Source: Acidobacteriota bacterium (lineage in GTDB: Bacteria; Acidobacteriota; UBA6911; RPQK01; JAJDTT01). Taken from it: a DNA stretch of 60,947 nucleotides. Positions 48,694 through 60,082 of the stretch are shown here, in pieces (position 1 is the stretch's first letter; each line of letters starts with the position of its first letter). Under the pieces are notes generated by a model, which searched no databases, was not told where the DNA came from, and saw nothing but the letters and a program-made list of their open reading frames with translations. The stretch covers positions 1 through 60,947 of the forward strand of contig JAJDTT010000061.1 in the NCBI GenBank assembly GCA_022827025.1, given 5' to 3'. Both the position numbers and the translations under genes were made by a program.

Positions 48694-48744
48694 CCGGAAC
48701 CTCCAATTCCGCTCTCGTCCAACCTCCAGGCCAGCGCCATCCGG

Positions 48745-48840
48745 CGGAGGCACATGGGAATCGAACCCACCGGCCCCGGATCTCGCCGCGGCCCGACTGA
48801 TTTTGAAGACCAGGCCCGTCACCAGACGAGAAGTGCCTCC
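48745..48840 (-). tRNA. selC: tRNA-Sec (anticodon TCA)
   Basis: 96-nt minus-strand gene with the features of bacterial selenocysteine tRNA: 8-bp acceptor stem (GGAGGCAC/GTGCCTCC), 6-bp D stem (CTCGTC/GACGGG), anticodon loop CTTCAAA giving TCA, a long GC-rich variable arm, a T arm with loop TTCGATT and a 5-bp T stem (one G-U), and discriminator G. CCA is not encoded. A leucine, serine or suppressor tRNA with UCA anticodon would not have the 8+5 acceptor/T arrangement. Confidence 0.93.
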
Positions 48841-51566: not shown

Positions 51567-52322
51567 CTAGCGAAACAGGTCCCGGTCCGCAGGCCGGACC
51601 AGGTTCGACGCATCGCCCGGCCCTTCTTCCAGACGCACTCCCCGGACCAGGGCCGCCGGCACCCGGCGACGCTTTCCCATCACCAGCTCCGCGGCGGAGG
51701 CGATTTCGTCGGCACGGGCGATGCAGGTGGACTGCAGGGTTCGGCCGAACCCGTCTTTTCTGCCCCGGTAGTCCGACAACGGCATTCCTCCCGCCACGCC
51801 GATGGCCACGTTCACCTGCCCCTCGCGCCAGGGACGGCCGAACGTGTCGGCAATGATCACCACCAGGTCCCACCCCGCCGCCTCTTTCAGGCCCGCCCTG
51901 ATGGCGGCCGCGGAGCGGTCCGGATCCTCCGGGAGCAGGGTGGCCATTCCCTCCGGACTGTTGGAGAGATCCACCCCGGCATTGGCGCACACGAACCCGT
52001 GCCTGGTTTCGGCCAGCAGCACCCCGCGATCCAGCTTCACGATCCTCCGGCTCTCGGACAGGGCCAATTCGACCACCCTGGGATCCCGGCCCCATTCCCG
52101 CGCCCAGGAGTCGGCCAACGGAGACGGGGTGACCGCCGCCAGGGGAACGATCCGCCCCTCCGCCTTGGAAACGATCTTGTGAGCCAACACCAGAATGTCC
52201 CCTGAGCGAGCCTGCAAGGGGAGCTTCGTCAGCGCCTCTGCCAGGAGCGGGACCAGGGCGTCCCCCGGCTTCACTTCGGGGAGTCCCGGGAGGGCCAGGA
52301 TGCGCACGCCGGTGTTATTCAT
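51567..52322 (-). CDS. cofE: coenzyme F420-0:L-glutamate ligase
   Basis: GTP-dependent addition of glutamates to F420-0. 251 aa from ATG 52322. Motifs: SGDILVLAHKIVSKAEGR near residue 40, and DTFGRPWREGQVNVAIGVAG near 155; AETRHGFVCANAGVD lies between. Only the ligase domain is present: the C-terminal nitroreductase-like domain found fused in FbiB of mycobacteria is absent. Overlaps cofC by 8 bases. Confidence 0.93.
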   Translation of the reverse strand: MNNTGVRILALPGLPEVKPGDALVPLLAEALTKLPLQARSGDILVLAHKIVSKAEGRIVPLAAVTPSPLADSWAREWGRDPRVVELALSESRRIVKLDRGVLLAETRHGFVCANAGVDLSNSPEGMATLLPEDPDRSAAAIRAGLKEAAGWDLVVIIADTFGRPWREGQVNVAIGVAGGMPLSDYRGRKDGFGRTLQSTCIARADEIASAAELVMGKRRRVPAALVRGVRLEEGPGDASNLVRPADRDLFR

Positions 52323-52989
52323 CAAGGTTCCACCCCTCCTCGGCCAGGCGGGCGACGAGGCCATTCTCGGCGAGATACCTCCTGGTCGCCGCCCCTCCCT
52401 TCGCGCGCCAGAACCGCAACAGATCTTCGGGGGCGTCCAGGTCGAGGCCGAACCGCGGGTTCGAGAGCACGGTGGCGGGAACCCGGGCGCGGCGCGCCTC
52501 CGCCAGATGCCGGCGCAGGCTGTCACGGCCGAAGCGGGACGGAAAGGCATCCGGCGGCATTCTCAACAGGGCATTGGTGCCCCGGCCGTCCCGCGAGGGC
52601 ACCAGGAGCGCCGCCGGAGCGGCCAGCGTTCGTCCCAGCAAAGCATCCACATCCCGCCCCTCGATGAGAGGGACGTCAAGCGGCACCCTGAGGACGCACG
52701 TTGCTCCCTGTTGGCGAAGCGCGGCTGCACTCTCGTCCACGGAGCGGCTCTCGGAGGTTTGGGACCGCTCCCGGATGAACTCCCACCGCCGCCGGGCGGC
52801 ATAGGCCGCAAGCTCAGGGTCCCGGCCGGCGACCACCACCTTGTCCGGCATTTTCGCGCACACCAGGGCCCTGCCCACATCCTCCAACATGGCCCGGACC
52901 AGCCCCGTCCTCTCCCGGCGGGACAGCCAGGGAGCCATTCTCCGTTTGGCTTGGGCCAGTTCCTTGACCGGCAACAGAACGACGTTCAC
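52315..52989 (-). CDS. cofC: 2-phospho-L-lactate (or PEP) guanylyltransferase CofC/FbiD
   Basis: Activates a three-carbon phosphoacid with GTP for F420 synthesis. 224 aa from GTG 52989, which overlaps the cofD stop as GTGA. Motifs: VVLLPVKELAQAKRRM at the N-terminus (nucleotide binding), LRVPLDVPLIEG and NPRFGLDLDAPEDL. The substrate (2-phospholactate, PEP or 3-phosphoglycerate) cannot be read directly. The open frame runs 233 codons farther upstream, but only through cofD. Confidence 0.88.
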   Translation of the reverse strand: MNVVLLPVKELAQAKRRMAPWLSRRERTGLVRAMLEDVGRALVCAKMPDKVVVAGRDPELAAYAARRRWEFIRERSQTSESRSVDESAAALRQQGATCVLRVPLDVPLIEGRDVDALLGRTLAAPAALLVPSRDGRGTNALLRMPPDAFPSRFGRDSLRRHLAEARRARVPATVLSNPRFGLDLDAPEDLLRFWRAKGGAATRRYLAENGLVARLAEEGWNLDE

Positions 52990-53966
52990 ACCAATCGCAA
53001 CAGGGCGCGCGCCAGAGCCCGTTTCGCGCCGGAGGTGTCCATGACGGTATTTCGGACCACGACCCGCATGCCCAGACGTTCGATGGCCGGTGCGCTTCCG
53101 GCATCGCGTTCGTCCAACACGAAAACATCCAGGAGGCCCCGGTAGATCCGGGCAACCCCTTCGGCGGAGACCGGATGCCCCAGCTCCCCGAGCATCTTCG
53201 CCGCCGGCCCCTTGAGGGCGCGCCCGCCGACAATGGGACTGACCGCCGCCACCAAGCCGCGGCTCGCGGCCACAGCCCGCCTGATTCCGGGGACCGCCAG
53301 GATGGGTCCTACGCTGATGAAAGGGTTGCTGGGACAGATGACCACGATCCGGGCGTCTCGAATGGCCTCTTCGACTCCCGGGCCGGCGCGCTGACGACTC
53401 ACACCAGTGTATTCGAAGCCCTGGACCCGAGGCGCGCACTTCTCCCGGACCAGGTACTCCTGAAGATGAAGGCGCCCGGCATCGGTCTTCACCAGAGTCG
53501 GCGTGTAGCCTTCCGCCATGGGCAGGACCGAAACTTCCACCCCCAGGGCCTCGCAGAGGTGTGCGGTCACGGCCGCCAGACCCCACCCCTGGCTCAACAG
53601 CGACGTCCGCCGGAGATGGGTCGCCAGATCCTGGTCTCCCAACCCGAACCACGTGTCCGCCCCCAAGCGGCCAAGGGCCTTCAAGCAACGGAACGTGTCC
53701 CCCTCGATGCCCCAGCCCCAGGCCCGGTTGGACAGGCCCGCCAGGGTATAGGTGATGGTGTCGAGATCCGGGCAGATCCGGAGCCCGAAGGCTTCCAGGT
53801 CATCCCCGGTATTCACCACGACGGAAAGGCGGCTTCCGAGCCCTTCCCGCGCCAGGCCCCAGACCAATTTTGCGGCGCCCACCCCTCCGGCCAAGGCCAC
53901 CACGGGAGCGGCATCCGGCCCGGAGAATTCATCGCCGGTCCCGACACGGGCAGGAGCTGCCGCCAC
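52986..53966 (-). CDS. cofD: 2-phospho-L-lactate transferase CofD/FbiA
   Basis: Joins the activated phosphoacid to Fo to give F420-0 (or its dehydro form). 326 aa. Motifs: VVALAGGVGAAKLVWGLA near residue 23, VVNTGDDLEAFGLRICPDLDTI, WGIEGDTF and ICPSNPFISVGPILAVPG. The first 20 residues are not family sequence, and an internal GTG near VVALAGG is an alternative start. Confidence 0.94.
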   Translation of the reverse strand: MAAAPARVGTGDEFSGPDAAPVVALAGGVGAAKLVWGLAREGLGSRLSVVVNTGDDLEAFGLRICPDLDTITYTLAGLSNRAWGWGIEGDTFRCLKALGRLGADTWFGLGDQDLATHLRRTSLLSQGWGLAAVTAHLCEALGVEVSVLPMAEGYTPTLVKTDAGRLHLQEYLVREKCAPRVQGFEYTGVSRQRAGPGVEEAIRDARIVVICPSNPFISVGPILAVPGIRRAVAASRGLVAAVSPIVGGRALKGPAAKMLGELGHPVSAEGVARIYRGLLDVFVLDERDAGSAPAIERLGMRVVVRNTVMDTSGAKRALARALLRLV

Positions 53967-53972
53967 GGATCT

Positions 53973-54632
53973 TCAAAGCCCCACGACACGGAAACGCGAC
54001 TCGTGAACCCGGTATCGGCGATTGATGCCGATCAGAAGGGCGCTCATTCTCTCCAGGGTCCGGGCCGTGTCGAGCCGGCCGGCGTCCACGGTCCGGACAC
54101 CTGGCCACCGGCTCAGCACCTGCGCCACCTCACGCTTCCGGCGCCCGGAATTCCCACACACGAAGACATCGCAATCGAGAGGCGCCGCGACCTCTTCCAG
54201 AAGGCGGGCCGGAACCGTCTTCAGGGCCGCCACCAGGGCGCCCGGATCAGGAAGAAGCGCAGCCAGTTGCTCGCTGCCGGAGGCGGCCTCCAGCGGGGTC
54301 ATCCGTATCCGGCCGGCGTCGAATGACACCGGCACCGTGACATCGACCCAGGTGGTTTCAGGCGCGGCGCGCGGCGTACACCCGGACACGAGATCGGCGG
54401 CGGCGGAAAAAGGCGCCGCCAGGAAGAGAACTTTCGACTGGGCCGCGACCTCCCGGTTCAGCGATCCCCGGATATGGGTTCCGCCTCCCAGAAGACGATT
54501 CAACTCCGACGCCGTCCCGGCCGCCCGGCTCCGGCTCCGGGATCCTACCATGACCTCGCAGCCCGCTCCGGCCAGGCGCAGTGCAATGCCCCGGCCTTCC
54601 TGTCCGGTGCCGGCGAGAACACCCAGTGTCAC
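53973..54632 (-). CDS. npdG: NADPH-dependent F420 reductase
   Basis: Transfers hydride between NADPH and F420, supplying reduced cofactor. 219 aa from GTG 54632, which follows GAGAGGGCGG; the longer upstream frame has no family sequence. Motifs: GVLAGTGQEGRGIALRLA (Rossmann), GSRSRSRA (NADP phosphate binding), KVLFLAAPFSAA, and DVFVCGNSGRRKREV near the C-terminus. First gene of the minus-strand F420 operon. The 275 bases to the next gene (54633-54907) hold nothing I recognise beyond the presumed divergent promoters. Confidence 0.9.
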   Translation of the reverse strand: MTLGVLAGTGQEGRGIALRLAGAGCEVMVGSRSRSRAAGTASELNRLLGGGTHIRGSLNREVAAQSKVLFLAAPFSAAADLVSGCTPRAAPETTWVDVTVPVSFDAGRIRMTPLEAASGSEQLAALLPDPGALVAALKTVPARLLEEVAAPLDCDVFVCGNSGRRKREVAQVLSRWPGVRTVDAGRLDTARTLERMSALLIGINRRYRVHESRFRVVGL

Positions 54633-54907
54633 AACCCGCCCTCTCTCTTGCCTGCCTCGCGGGACCCCGACCCGGGATCCACCCTTGCAGGAAGCCGCAT
54701 TACAGCAAAGCGCGGCCACCCCCACAAGTCTTGCGTTCAGTGGGTTTTGTCCGTCCGGCGCCCCTGTCGCCACCGATCCGGAAGGCTTGCGGGGGAGAGA
54801 GCGTCCGCGTAATCTCTGCACTGCGTTGATGAGTTGATGGAGGCGCCGCCGGCAACATTTTCAGGGCGGTGCAGCGGTTCGAGCCCGGATGTTCCCGGTA
54901 GCGGTCA

Positions 54908-57900
54908 ATGAACTCGGTAGCTGAATATCTCAAGGGCAAGACACTGTTCATCACCGGAGCCACCGGTTTCCTGGGACAGTGCCTGGTCGAGAAAATCCTC
55001 TGGGCGGTGCCCGACGTCAAGCGCGTCTATGTCCTGATCCGCCCGCGAACGAACCTGCGCGGCGCGGTCGTGACCGCCCGGATGAGACTGGAAAGGGAAC
55101 TCTACCAAGCCAGTTGTTTCGACCGTCTCCGAAGCAAGCTCGGCGGCGATTTTCCGGCCTTCCTGAAAGAAAAACTGGTCCCGGTCTCGGGCGATCTGTC
55201 CCGGGACGACCTGAACATCGACGAGCAGACCCGGCTTCGCCTCCAGGGCGAAACCGACATCGTCATCAACAGTGCCGCCGTCGTCTCTTTTGACGCCCCG
55301 CTGGACGAAGCCTACCACCTGAATGTGCTGGGCGCCGAGCGGGTCGCCCGGTTTGCCCAGTCGTGCGACGGCTGCGTCCTGGTGCATGTCTCCACGGCCT
55401 ATGTGTGCGGCGCCGTCATCGGCTCGGTCCCGGAAACGATTCCGGCGCCTCCGGTGCGGACCGGCGAGGCATTCCCCGTGCGCGCCTTCAGCGACGTGGA
55501 CCTGGACATCGAGCGCATCGAGAAGATCCTCGACTCGGTCCGCGAGCGCGCCTATGCGCCCGAACTCGAGCGGGAATTCGCGGCGGCGCTGTTGCGGCGA
55601 TTCAGGCGCTCGAAGGGGGGGCGCAATGTTCGGCGGCGGGAGAAGATCGAGAACCTCCGCAAGAAATGGATCCAGGACCAGCTCTCCCAGGAGGGGATGA
55701 GCTGGGCTCGCGAGCGAGGCTGGAACGACACCTACACCTACACCAAGTCCATCGGCGAACGGATCGTCTTGCGGACCCGGAACGGGGCTCCGACCATCAT
55801 CATTCGCCCCGCCGTCATCGAGAGCGGCTTTTCCGAGCCCAGCCCCGGATGGCTCGAAGGGCTTCGCATGGCCGATCCTCTCATCGCCGCCATCGGCAAG
55901 GGCCGTCTCCGGGCCCTGCCCCTGAGCCCCAAGGTCATCATCGACCTGGTGCCCGTGGATATGGTGGTGAACGCGTTGCTGGCGTCGCTTCCCGCCAACT
56001 CGAACGCAACGGGCGTCCGGATCTACCAGGTGGCCACCGGGTCCTGCAATCCCATCACGTTGGGCTATCTCTACGATCTCATCTACCGCTATTTCAAAAG
56101 AAACCCCATGTTCGACAAGTCGGGGCGGCCCATCGACATTCGCTACCTCCGCTTCCCGAAGCCGGCCAGTTTCCGCTTGCAACATCGACTCAAGGCGCTG
56201 CCCTTGAACCTGGCGGCCGGCGCCTTGGACAAGCTCTCCCTGCTCGACTCGTTCAGAAGTGTCCAGCGCTACAAGCGGCGCCTTTCGGCGCTGACGGCGG
56301 CGCACGAAAAACTCCATTACTACGGAGAAATCTACGAACCGTATCTGAACCTGAATTGCCGCTTCGGAATCGAGAACACGATGGGCCTCCTGGACAACAT
56401 GTCCCCGGAGGAGCGGGAAGTCTTCAACTTCGACGTGACGCGCCTGAACTGGCGCCACTACATTCAGAACATCCACATCCCCGGGGTCAAGAAGTTCATT
56501 CTGAAGATGGAGGGAGCCGGCACGCTGGAACTGGACGTCCAACCGGCCGGCGAAGGCGGATCCGTCTCGACCATCAACGACCTCCTCGCCTACAGCGTAT
56601 CCCGGTACTCCGCCAAGACCGCGCTCCAGATGCAGCGCAACGGCGAGTGGATCCGCTATTCGTACTCGGATCTTCAGCGCCGGGCCGGGGCCGTCGGCCG
56701 GCAACTCCGGATCGAGGGCCTGGCCAAAGGCGATCGAGTGGTCCTCTTTGCGGAGAACCAGCCGGACTGGGGCGTCGCGTACCTCGGCGCGGCCTCTCAG
56801 GGACTCGTCGTCGTTCCCCTCGATTCCCAGTCGTGGCACCGAGAGGTCTGGTCCGTCGCCCGCTTCACCGGGGCCCGGGCCATCCTGGCTTCGTCACGCA
56901 CCATCGAGCGGTTGCCGCCTGAAAGCATGGCGCGGAATGAAGCCGGCGAGGTCCCGGTCCGGCTCCTCAACATCAACGAGCTGGCCCAACCGTTCGGCGT
57001 GCCGCAATGCCCGCGCAGCACCGGCGCCGTGGATCCCGCTTCGCCGCCGGCCGCCGGCGGCCCGGTGACGGTCGACGCCCAGGACCCGGCCTCCATCATC
57101 TTCACCACGACCACCGCAGCCGACCCCAAGGGCGCCGTCCACACCCATTCCAGCTTTCTCAGCAATCTCCACGGCATGAACCGTTACCTGGCGGCGGAGG
57201 AGACGGATCAGATCCTTTCGGTGCTCCCTCTCTACCATGCCCTGGAGTTCACGTGCGGCTTTCTGTCCCCGCTGTTTGGCGGTGCTACCGTCACCTACCT
57301 TCACTCCCTGAAGCCGAGAGTCATCCTGAAGACCATGCGGGAGACGGGCACCACCTGCATGTTGGGCGTCCCCAGCCTCTATGCGCTGATCCGCGACGAC
57401 ATCAACCGGCGCACACTGCGCGCCTCCAAGTCATCTCTGAAGTCCAACCTGGTGGCCAGGTCACGCCAACTCAGCAAGTCCATCGACAAGACCTTCGGCA
57501 AGAACCTGGGACGGCAGCTCTTCGCTCGGGTACACCAGGAATTCGGGGGCAGGATCCGGGCCTTCGTCAGTGGCGGTTCTTCTCTCGGCGATGAACTCTA
57601 CGACGACTTCAAGGCCCTGGGCCTGACCATCTACGAAGGCTACGGGCTCACCGAGACCGCGCCGGTCCTCACGGTCAACCCGCTGAACAGGAGCCGCCGG
57701 GGATCGGCCGGAAAGCCGTTGCCCGGGACCGAGCTGCGGATCTTTCAAGCCGATGACCGGGGCGAAGGCGAGATCATCGTCCGTACGCCCAGCCTCATGA
57801 AGGGTTACTACAAGAACCCGCAAGCCACCCGCGCCGTGATGCGCGAGGGCTGGTTTCACACCGGGGATCTGGGGTGGGTGGACGAGGACGGATACCTCTA

Positions 57901-59284
57901 CATCACGGGGCGCAAGAAAAACGTCATCGTCACCGGGGCCGGCAAGAACGTCTATCCCGTGGACCTGGAGGCCATCTACCGCAATGTTCCGGCCGTCGAC
58001 GACATCTGCGTGGTGGGCACTCCCAAGGGACTGACCGAAGACGTCCATGCGGTCATCGTGCCCAAGAAGGAGACGTTGCGGGATGTGGCGGCGCCGGAAT
58101 GGCCACGGGCCATGAAGCGGGCGACTCGCGCACTCGCCCGCCAGCTACCCGGATACCAGCGGCTGCAGCATATTCATCTTTCGGAGACGCCCCTGCCGAG
58201 ACACGGTGACGGGTCGCTCGCCCGCGACGTGATCCTGCAAAACGTGCGCCGGAGCGTCGCCCGCGCTCGAGCTCGCGGCGGCCCGGGGACGCGGCCCCGC
58301 GGCAGCGACGTCGCCATGGAGCTGACCCGGGAGCTGAGCCGAATCTCGGGGATTCCCTCGGCGGAAATCACGCCCGACTCCCATCTGTTCACCGACGTGG
58401 GCCTGGATTCCCTTGCCGCCATGGAGCTGCTGATTCAACTGGAGCATCGATTCGGCATTTCTCTTTCGGAAGAGCGCGTCGCCTCCCTGGTGAGCTTTGG
58501 CGATCTGGTCGCCGCGGTGAAGGAGAGCCGGGCCGCAACCGAAGCCGGCACAACCGGCACGGCCGCCGTCCGGTCCGCCCTGCCGTGGTCCCAGCGGCCG
58601 TCCATCGACCGCGCCTTGCTCGGGCTCTCCTTTTCCGCCCTCCGGCTCCTGTACGCAAGCTACTTCCGGTTGCGGCTGCGATTTCCGGAACACCTTCCCC
58701 GGGACGAGGCCTACGTCATCGCCGCCAACCATTCCAGCCATCTCGACAGCGGCGCCATCATCGCCGCCCTGGCCGGGGCCCTGGGGCCCAAACAGGCAAA
58801 AAAGCTCCATCTTCTCGGCGCCCGGGACTACTTCTTCAACAACCCCGTTCGCGCCTGGTTTTTCAGCACCTTTCTCAACGTGGTGCCCATCGAACGGGAA
58901 GAAACCTCGTTGGCGGGACTCCGCATCATCCAAACGATCCTGCAGGAAGGCGAACCCATTCTCATCTTTCCGGAGGGCACGCGATCGCGGACCGGCGAAC
59001 TTCGATCCTTCAAACCTGGCCTCGGCCTCATCGCCCGGGAACTCAGGGTGCCCATCGTCCCGACCCATATCGACGGCGCCTACCGGGCGCTGCCGGCGGG
59101 ACGCAACCTTCCCCGTCCCGGAAGGCTGGAAGTGACTTTCGGCAAACCGATCAGGACCGAGCGGTATTTCTCGGACGGCGCCGAGGAGTCCCGCGTCCAC
59201 CTTTACCGAAAGATCGCCGACGACGTCAGAGAGCATGTCGTGCGCTTGGGGAGCCGGGACGGGGGCGGGGACGAACCGGTTTGA
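54908..59284 (+). CDS. four-module enzyme: fatty acyl reductase - acyl-AMP ligase - acyl carrier protein - PlsC acyltransferase (ElbD-like)
   Basis: 1458 aa. Module 1 (about 1-545): fatty acyl reductase with ITGATGFLG (15-23), the Y276-x3-K280 catalytic pair and a FAR-C-like end (YYGEIYEPYLNLNCRFG). Module 2 (about 550-1095): AMP-dependent acyl ligase with EGYGLTE (910-916) and GWFHTGDLGW; its phosphate loop FTTTTAADPKG (732-742) lacks the usual S-G-T-T-G glycines. Module 3 (about 1130-1200): carrier protein with phosphopantetheine serine S1168 in GLDSLAAME. Module 4 (about 1240-1450): acyltransferase with H1275-x4-D1280 and FPEGTRSRTG (1354-1363). No membrane anchor is obvious. The arrangement suggests loading, reduction and acyl transfer of a lipid chain on one polypeptide, as in myxobacterial ElbD (from memory). 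Substrate and order of steps are inference. Confidence 0.88.
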   Translation: MNSVAEYLKGKTLFITGATGFLGQCLVEKILWAVPDVKRVYVLIRPRTNLRGAVVTARMRLERELYQASCFDRLRSKLGGDFPAFLKEKLVPVSGDLSRDDLNIDEQTRLRLQGETDIVINSAAVVSFDAPLDEAYHLNVLGAERVARFAQSCDGCVLVHVSTAYVCGAVIGSVPETIPAPPVRTGEAFPVRAFSDVDLDIERIEKILDSVRERAYAPELEREFAAALLRRFRRSKGGRNVRRREKIENLRKKWIQDQLSQEGMSWARERGWNDTYTYTKSIGERIVLRTRNGAPTIIIRPAVIESGFSEPSPGWLEGLRMADPLIAAIGKGRLRALPLSPKVIIDLVPVDMVVNALLASLPANSNATGVRIYQVATGSCNPITLGYLYDLIYRYFKRNPMFDKSGRPIDIRYLRFPKPASFRLQHRLKALPLNLAAGALDKLSLLDSFRSVQRYKRRLSALTAAHEKLHYYGEIYEPYLNLNCRFGIENTMGLLDNMSPEEREVFNFDVTRLNWRHYIQNIHIPGVKKFILKMEGAGTLELDVQPAGEGGSVSTINDLLAYSVSRYSAKTALQMQRNGEWIRYSYSDLQRRAGAVGRQLRIEGLAKGDRVVLFAENQPDWGVAYLGAASQGLVVVPLDSQSWHREVWSVARFTGARAILASSRTIERLPPESMARNEAGEVPVRLLNINELAQPFGVPQCPRSTGAVDPASPPAAGGPVTVDAQDPASIIFTTTTAADPKGAVHTHSSFLSNLHGMNRYLAAEETDQILSVLPLYHALEFTCGFLSPLFGGATVTYLHSLKPRVILKTMRETGTTCMLGVPSLYALIRDDINRRTLRASKSSLKSNLVARSRQLSKSIDKTFGKNLGRQLFARVHQEFGGRIRAFVSGGSSLGDELYDDFKALGLTIYEGYGLTETAPVLTVNPLNRSRRGSAGKPLPGTELRIFQADDRGEGEIIVRTPSLMKGYYKNPQATRAVMREGWFHTGDLGWVDEDGYLYITGRKKNVIVTGAGKNVYPVDLEAIYRNVPAVDDICVVGTPKGLTEDVHAVIVPKKETLRDVAAPEWPRAMKRATRALARQLPGYQRLQHIHLSETPLPRHGDGSLARDVILQNVRRSVARARARGGPGTRPRGSDVAMELTRELSRISGIPSAEITPDSHLFTDVGLDSLAAMELLIQLEHRFGISLSEERVASLVSFGDLVAAVKESRAATEAGTTGTAAVRSALPWSQRPSIDRALLGLSFSALRLLYASYFRLRLRFPEHLPRDEAYVIAANHSSHLDSGAIIAALAGALGPKQAKKLHLLGARDYFFNNPVRAWFFSTFLNVVPIEREETSLAGLRIIQTILQEGEPILIFPEGTRSRTGELRSFKPGLGLIARELRVPIVPTHIDGAYRALPAGRNLPRPGRLEVTFGKPIRTERYFSDGAEESRVHLYRKIADDVREHVVRLGSRDGGGDEPV

Positions 59285-59327: not shown

Positions 59328-59419
59328 GGAGAGGTGCTGGAGTGGCTGAACAGGGCTGCCTGCTAAGCAGTTACTCGGGGGAACCTGGGTCGGGGGTTCG
59401 AATCCCCCCCTCTCCGCCA
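59328..59419 (+). tRNA. tRNA-Ser (anticodon GCT)
   Basis: 92 nt including an encoded CCA: acceptor GGAGAGG/CCTCTCC, anticodon loop CTGCTAA giving GCT, long class II variable arm, T loop TTCGAATC. An integrase lies directly downstream in the same orientation, so the 3' end of this gene is the likely attachment site. Confidence 0.96.
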
Positions 59420-59575: not shown

Positions 59576-60082
59576 ATGCCCCTCACCGCTATTGCCGTCC
59601 GTCATTCGAAACCCTCTACCAAGACCCGAAAAATGTTCGACGGAGGCGGTCTGTACCTGGAAATATCCCCCCGCGGCAACAAGTGGTGGCGGCTGAAATA
59701 TCGGTTCGGAGGCAAGGAGAAGCGGATTTCCCTGGGTGTCTATCCTGAGATATCTCTGAAGGAGGCTCGGGTCCGGCGCGCCCAGGCCCGCCAGCTCTTG
59801 GCCCGAGAGATCGATCCCAGTGAGTGCCGCAAGACACAGAAGGCCGCGAAAGAGCGAGGCTCAGCCAACAGTTTCGAAGCCATGGCACGGGAATGGCATG
59901 CCAAGCACACCCCCAACTGGGCGACCAGTCATGCTTATCGAGTGTCCAGCCAACTGAAACGAGATATCTTTCCGTGGATGGGCGGGCGGCCGATTGCCGG
60001 TATCACCGCCCCTGAGAAGTCAACGTCAAATCGCTTAGTGCTCTTGTCCCTTCCCTGCGGTCCGACGTGCGGAGGATCGTAG
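59576..60082 (+). pseudogene. truncated P4-type tyrosine integrase
   Basis: The first 147 or so residues are a clear Arm-DNA-binding (DUF4102) N-terminus of a P4/prophage integrase: MPLTAIAVRHSKPSTKTRK, DGGGLYLEISPRGNKWWRLK, SLGVYPEISLKEARVRRAQA, then the start of the core-binding domain ending FPWMGGRPIAGITAPE. Homology stops at about 60016; the remaining 21 codons are unrelated. The catalytic domain with R-H-R-Y is absent, so the protein cannot recombine DNA. Remnant of an element inserted at tRNA-Ser. Confidence 0.85.

Follow-up and report, generated by a model that had tools for sequence, protein, structure and literature searches.

How might an uncultured bacterium build ether lipids, if the enzyme that resembles the known ether-lipid enzyme carries a ligase that looks unable to use ATP in the normal way? 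The aerobic bacterial route to alkyl-ether membrane lipids is unsettled, and the origin of acidobacterial ether lipids, which serve as palaeoclimate proxies, is debated. The question is raised by a gene found at positions 54,908 to 59,284 of an acidobacterial stretch of 60,947 nucleotides (contig JAJDTT010000061.1, assembly GCA_022827025.1), which we refer to as a whole as the window. The gene codes for a single protein joining a fatty acyl reductase (FAR), an acyl-AMP ligase, an acyl carrier protein (ACP) and a PlsC acyltransferase. The original prediction had likened it to ElbD of Myxococcus (for M. xanthus reportedly the work of Lorenzen in 2014) and proposed an ether-lipid or wax-type lipid synthase. 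We give an even chance to the reading that it is a multifunctional ElbD-type ether-lipid enzyme, of a lineage parallel to ElbD, with an ACP that would be charged in trans.

The four modules and the altered ligase

The Pfam analysis recovered all the modules in the predicted order.

54908..59284, + strand: whole gene, FAR - AMP-ligase - ACP - PlsC, 1458 aa (stop-free translation, Pfam)
54950..55975, + strand: FAR NAD(P)-binding domain, residues 15-356 (Pfam NAD_binding_4, 1.8e-61; TGATGFLG and YTYTK intact)
56243..56506, + strand: FAR C-terminal 'Sterile' (FAR_C) domain, residues 446-533 (Pfam PF03015, 3.9e-16)
56594..57811, + strand: AMP-ligase N-terminal domain, residues 563-968 (Pfam PF00501 AMP-binding, 1.1e-69; AlphaFold2 fold)
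57101..57133, + strand: degenerate ligase phosphate-binding loop (P-loop) FTTTTAADPKG, residues 732-742, replacing (F/Y)TSGTTGxPKG
57965..58201, + strand: AMP-ligase C-terminal domain, residues 1020-1098 (Pfam PF13193 AMP-binding_C, 2.8e-6)
58190..58225, + strand: ligase A10 motif, with Ser1103 in place of the catalytic lysine (TPLPRHGDGSLAR)
58322..58519, + strand: ACP, residues 1139-1204 (Pfam PF00550 PP-binding, 4.6e-13)
58409-58411, + strand: codon of the ACP phosphopantetheine serine, Ser1168
58670..59071, + strand: PlsC/AGPAT acyltransferase, residues 1255-1388 (Pfam PF01553, 1.3e-23; HX4D and FPEGTRS intact)

Inspection of the motifs likewise upheld the claim that Ser1168 and the FAR and HX4D acyltransferase motifs are intact (TGATGFLG, YTYTK, GLDS1168L, NHSSHLD and FPEGTRS). 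The ACP motif reads GLDSL everywhere in the clade except in one member with GFDSL, and the FAR module is of the alcohol-forming type. The ligase is present as had been claimed, with both Pfam AMP-binding domains, but its abnormal ATP-binding loop had gone unremarked. In the genus of the window, the Ser, Gly, Thr and Gly of TSGTTG are all lost together (FTTTTAAD), and sister lineages have FTTGTAVDPKG, FTNSTAVDPKG, FTSGTIVNPRG and similar versions. The second glycine of the loop is missing from 14/14 clade members examined versus 9/143 other ligases; Gly738 is kept in 134 of these 143 and Gly735 in all of them. The A10 lysine is absent from 12 of the 14 clade members. Of the 83 positions that other ligases conserve, nine are changed in the clade, and seven of these nine belong to the P-loop or the A10 motif (p = 2.5e-5, a value that assumes independent positions, the clade being a single lineage).

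The rest of the domain has been kept. The P-loop Lys741, YGLTE, TGD, the A8 region and the hinge region are all present, about 90% of the family-conserved ligase positions are retained, and ligase identity between families is ~60%. The ratio of nonsynonymous to synonymous changes (dN/dS) within the genus was 0.085-0.185 for the ligase versus 0.17-0.20 for the FAR, no higher in the ligase, indicating that the domain is maintained by purifying selection. Judged from these residues, the ligase appears to be devoid of normal adenylation ability, and the clade has probably lost adenylation or altered it strongly. The same genome codes for two ligase-ACP-PlsC paralogs with an intact ligase (contigs C225, which holds paralog A, and C92). 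Among Myxococcota, the P-loops of the ElbD-like proteins L241 and L223 are altered and that of L229 is near-canonical, as read by eye; from these single relatives, such a change may be recurrent.

An AlphaFold2 model of the window ligase (predicted local distance difference test score 88.8) had acyl-CoA ligases as its top Foldseek matches. With a single model for each protein, the window ligase was nearer to thioester-forming structures (3cw9 0.75 and 4g37 0.75 versus 3cw8 0.61 and 4g36 0.62), and the intact ligase L010, modelled with the same 37 sequences, took the adenylate-forming pose (3cw8 0.76, 4g36 0.75, 4g37 0.66).

A lineage parallel to ElbD

In M. xanthus, ElbD is required for ether lipids, and its acyl-CoA synthetase and ACP activities have been shown in vitro (PMC9131029). 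The ElbD sequences of Corallococcus and Pyxidicoccus served us as stand-ins for that of M. xanthus. The myxobacterial contig matches of a first scan were other ligases and not ElbD, which was then found by a whole-genome search. The window protein has the domain order and size of ElbD (~1450-1500 aa), and is collinear with it over residues 4-1436 at ~33% identity. They are reciprocal best hits: the window protein (P0001) matches ElbD at 1.8e-194, with the next match in G396 at 5.6e-54, and ElbD matches the window protein at 5.9e-195, with the next at 1.4e-121. To this extent the predicted likeness to ElbD stood, but the FAR module comes from another FAR lineage. We ran the phylogeny against ElbD separately for three modules. 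In the FAR tree, the clade of the window's order groups with PlsC-less FAR-ligase-ACP proteins and with 7eoz, a fatty acyl-CoA reductase of solved structure, away from every ElbD FAR, and placing the module with ElbD was rejected by approximately unbiased (AU) tests (p = 1.3e-11 and 1e-7). In the ligase tree, the order clade is starred on its own, and the tree decides neither for a position sister to ElbD, which was not rejected (p = 0.22), nor for grouping with the FAR-ligase-ACP proteins (support 77), likewise not rejected. The PlsC tree leans to ElbD: the window clade and the ElbD PlsC come out as sisters, moderately supported at 92/82, under the star threshold. The PlsC tree excepted, these were quick searches with Shimodaira-Hasegawa-like approximate likelihood ratio (SH-aLRT) support only. 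An ordinary ElbD ortholog is ruled out for the FAR module by its tree and the AU tests. Since this module falls outside the ElbD FAR clade, the protein is not a strict ElbD ortholog, and we conclude from the trees that it represents a mosaic or parallel ElbD-like lineage outside the strict ElbD clade, one that may well work like ElbD. It also differs in that FTSGTTGxPKG, which is rarely missing from the myxobacterial relatives, is absent from the window lineage, as usually is the A10 lysine, and in that no elbB, elbC or elbE was present among the Pfam-scanned open reading frames (ORFs) of the window.

The whole FAR module matches 7eoz at 1.4e-84; 7eoz is a stand-alone enzyme, unlike the fused module of the window, and its sequence reads like the plant MS2/DPW type. 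Plant MS2 reduces palmitoyl-ACP (PMC11013768), so that an ACP-bound substrate would suit a FAR of this type, and FarA-type reductases yield alcohols directly (PMC11948995). The nearest bacterial relatives are the FAR-ligase-ACP proteins of other Acidobacteriota (L177-L179). They share a Gly-to-Val change in the P-loop, but they have no PlsC and, unlike the window lineage, keep TSGTT and the A10 lysine; the genes around them were inspected and gave no functional hint. A second NAD_binding_4 match in the host genome (contig C39), near ketoreductase/ACP and radical-SAM genes, was set aside as secondary metabolism. Other Acidobacteriota (L104-L107, L112, L118) have fusions of ~780-830 residues that begin with a HAD phosphatase-like part and end with a FAR.

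We searched 396 genomes of the phylum with the FAR module, and full-length fusions at 56-93% FAR identity were found only in the window's order. Within it, the gene was present in 15 of the 18 genomes searched (7/8 of those of good quality), with full-length copies at ~54-92% identity to that of the window. One of the 15 copies is split over two frames of 883 + 755 aa (L149, in the congeneric genome G290), probably by an assembly error. The full-length copies in 15/18 genomes, together with a dN/dS of 0.15-0.19 for the gene within the genus, rule out that the fusion is an artefact. As far as sampled, the lineage is by sequence confined to this one uncultured acidobacterial order. The loci of sister families are flanked by tRNA-Sec and tRNA-Ser as in the window, an arrangement that speaks for a single ancestral site, inherited vertically. 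Elsewhere, other acidobacterial families, f29 above all, have a second group of fusions of ~1500 residues, at ~30% identity. The P-loops are intact in the canonical acidobacterial type (f29 and others, L163-L176), whose place is with myxobacterial ElbD. Myxococcota commonly have ElbD-like fusions: a FAR-module match, mostly in an ElbD-sized frame, turned up in 99 of 146 genomes. Acidobacterial elbD homologs (PMC11868695, PMC10087280), and elbD-like gene clusters in sponge Acidobacteriota and Poribacteria (PMC9426513), have been published; compared by description only, the acidobacterial genes have the same four domain types.

Candidate partner genes and the ether-lipid reading

The mammalian peroxisomal ether-lipid pathway employs FAR1, GNPAT, AGPS and a reductase of the short-chain dehydrogenase/reductase (SDR) type. 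The host genome likewise encodes FAR, acyltransferases, AGPS and an adjacent SDR, with the differences that its FAR is fused to ligase, ACP and PlsC and that its SDR is only a putative alkyl-dihydroxyacetone phosphate (alkyl-DHAP) reductase; against solved structures the SDR had no relative at 1e-30. The AGPS gene, a 639-residue ORF on contig C299, matches guinea-pig AGPS (4bby) at 4e-164 versus 1.6e-22 to D-lactate dehydrogenase, keeps SHHHGVGK and is followed by the SDR gene. By its sequence it is a true AGPS and not a GlcD or D-lactate dehydrogenase. The pair was also found in G037 and in a genome of another family, G148, where the two genes overlap by 4 bp. The AGPS of G037 and G148 were identified by 94% and 64% identity to one another, and that of the host (G000) against the solved AGPS. 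AGPS-SDR pairs of uncultured Acidobacteriota lie at the following loci.

L260:6566-8485, - strand: AGPS-SDR gene pair
L261:4735-6498, + strand: AGPS-SDR gene pair

Where no AGPS was detected in a sister genome, ElbB- and ElbC-like genes were present in its place. In sister families a YegS/DAGK-like lipid kinase gene lies directly upstream of the ortholog (with a 4-bp overlap in L159), and in some families an ElbB-like HAD phosphatase, an alcohol dehydrogenase and a LarA-like ElbC homolog lie downstream.

L185:6751-8361, + strand: ElbC homolog, Lar_N domain
L159:11047-12621, + strand: ElbC homolog, Lar_N domain

The only loci in which we saw ElbE were of the f29 type or myxobacterial, no whole-genome search for it having been made. 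According to PMC9131029, the function of ElbC is unknown. Its acidobacterial homolog scores above the NCBIfam cut-off for the NPN-dependent (nickel-pincer) hydroxyacid isomerases LarAH14/15/16, and the LarA papers searched made no mention of lipids or elb. Among six genomes tested, AGPS-type matches occurred in G000, G037 and G148, and ElbB with a full-length ElbC in G008, G211 and G140, where the absence of AGPS was judged by match length and score. That AGPS and ElbB/ElbC are mutually exclusive is a hypothesis, since the six include several incomplete drafts and two genomes of one genus.

The best reading of the protein, in our opinion, is that of a supplier of fatty alcohol and acyl groups for alkyl-ether phospholipids. 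The sequences show the domains and motifs, the identity of AGPS, the gene neighbourhoods, the pattern of losses and the constraint; we infer the loading in trans, the cooperation with AGPS and, from the protein families, each reaction. With the P-loop glycine of the built-in ligase gone, and in most copies the A10 lysine too, the ACP would depend on fatty acyl groups delivered in trans; the source could be the two intact ligase-ACP-PlsC paralogs or acyl-ACP from type II fatty acid synthesis. Using NAD(P)H, the FAR would reduce the ACP thioester to a fatty alcohol. The separate AGPS would then put this alcohol in the place of the acyl chain in acyl-DHAP, creating the ether bond, the SDR encoded beside it would reduce the keto group, and the PlsC domain would transfer acyl groups to the glycerol backbone. 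In the literature, our search for adenylation domains that are inactive and loaded in trans turned up only ubiquitin-type papers. Of the roles in the original prediction, the ether-lipid one is the best supported, through the module order, the reciprocal best hits, the AGPS-SDR pair and the ElbB/ElbC-like neighbours in sister families; strict ElbD orthology did not survive, the ligase appears abnormal, and a wax role found no support. A DUF2229 protein, the anaerobic ether or plasmalogen synthase of the Ger/PlsAR type, had no match in the host genome, while four controls matched. If correct, this reading provides a defined, testable enzyme set for an uncultured acidobacterial order (FAR-ACP-PlsC fusion, AGPS and SDR), and the altered ATP-binding loop together with a reductase of a different branch suggests a modified ether-lipid route. 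It also advises caution with homology surveys that infer ether-lipid producers (PMC11868695), as an elbD-like match may have an inactive ligase or be no ElbD ortholog.

Several points weigh against such a role. The host AGPS lies on a different contig from the FAR-ligase-ACP-PlsC gene, so that we can only infer their coupling. No close ElbB, ElbC or YegS homolog was found in the host genome (ElbE was not searched there), ElbD homologs occur in bacteria without detected ether lipids, such as Pontiella (PMC11868695), and the pose difference between the two modelled ligases is only suggestive. The A10 lysine is missing from 19/132 other ligases with a residue there, including two Pyxidicoccus ElbDs, and its loss is for this reason less telling and not decisive alone. 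This last point would also fit an ordinary ElbD-like enzyme that tolerates the altered P-loop and whose ligase activates fatty acids and loads its own ACP. We regard this explanation as possible though unlikely: Lys741, YGLTE, TGD and the A8 region are kept under strong constraint, and in the FAR-ligase-ACP relatives the Gly-to-Val change stands alone, beside an intact TSGTT and lysine, but four loop residues are lost jointly in the window genus, Gly735 and Gly738 are nearly invariant elsewhere and the departures cluster in catalytic loops.

It is doubtful that another fatty-alcohol lipid is made instead of ether phospholipids, be it a wax-type ester, a glycolipid or a secondary metabolite. 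The grouping of the FAR module with 7eoz and not with ElbD FARs would suit such a product, as would the lack of ElbB and ElbC in the genus and the ability of PlsC domains to acylate several acceptors. On the other hand, the host genome and a sister family have AGPS together with SDR, the orthologs have a lipid kinase and ElbB/ElbC-like genes beside them, and the locus is kept across the whole order, unlike a patchy secondary-metabolite cluster. The host genome gave no match to WS/DGAT either, although this search was uninformative, the controls being blank too.

With similar reserve we consider a variant of the ether-lipid reading, in which the ligase would be non-adenylating, keeping its thioester half or serving as an acyl-relay or ACP-docking domain fed by other enzymes, and AGPS and ElbB-ElbC would be interchangeable partners of ElbD-type enzymes. 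In that event ElbB and ElbC would belong to a route of ether formation not yet described. That the ligase is a decaying remnant with no role is very improbable, since, even if several catalytic residues are gone and the loop has degenerated furthest in the very genus whose locus also lacks partner genes, purifying selection on the ligase equals or exceeds that on the FAR, identity between families is still ~60% and the departures from the conserved positions fall mainly in two loops.

Neighbourhood of the gene

The absence of an ether-forming or phosphatase partner, stated in the original prediction, agrees with our Pfam scan of ~47 ORFs of the window (not every ORF), which identified no ether-forming enzyme or HAD phosphatase. 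The gene stands between a block of F420 genes and a tRNA.

51567-52550 (within): cofE, F420 block
52315-53688 (within): cofC, F420 block
52986-53966: cofD, F420 block
53973..54821, - strand: F420_oxidored-family protein (Pfam), the divergent neighbour, start of the F420 block
59328..59419, + strand: tRNA-Ser(GCU), right-hand end of the conserved locus, 43 bases past the gene end

The position of the F420 block next to the gene is conserved in several families. We rejected these genes as functional partners, nothing further linking them. Housekeeping genes make up most of the remaining scanned window: SUF, Mre, RNase E/G, YidC, a GlmS-like protein and amino-acid biosynthesis. Across the order, tRNA-Sec was found near the FAR-ligase-ACP-PlsC gene. 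In the window it lies at 48743-48840 (- strand) and overlaps the N-terminus of the longest cofG frame (48647), whose true start is probably later for this reason. Near the window end, at 59576-60082 (+ strand), the N-terminal piece of a phage-type integrase adjoins tRNA-Ser(GCU), beside which an integrated element probably begins.

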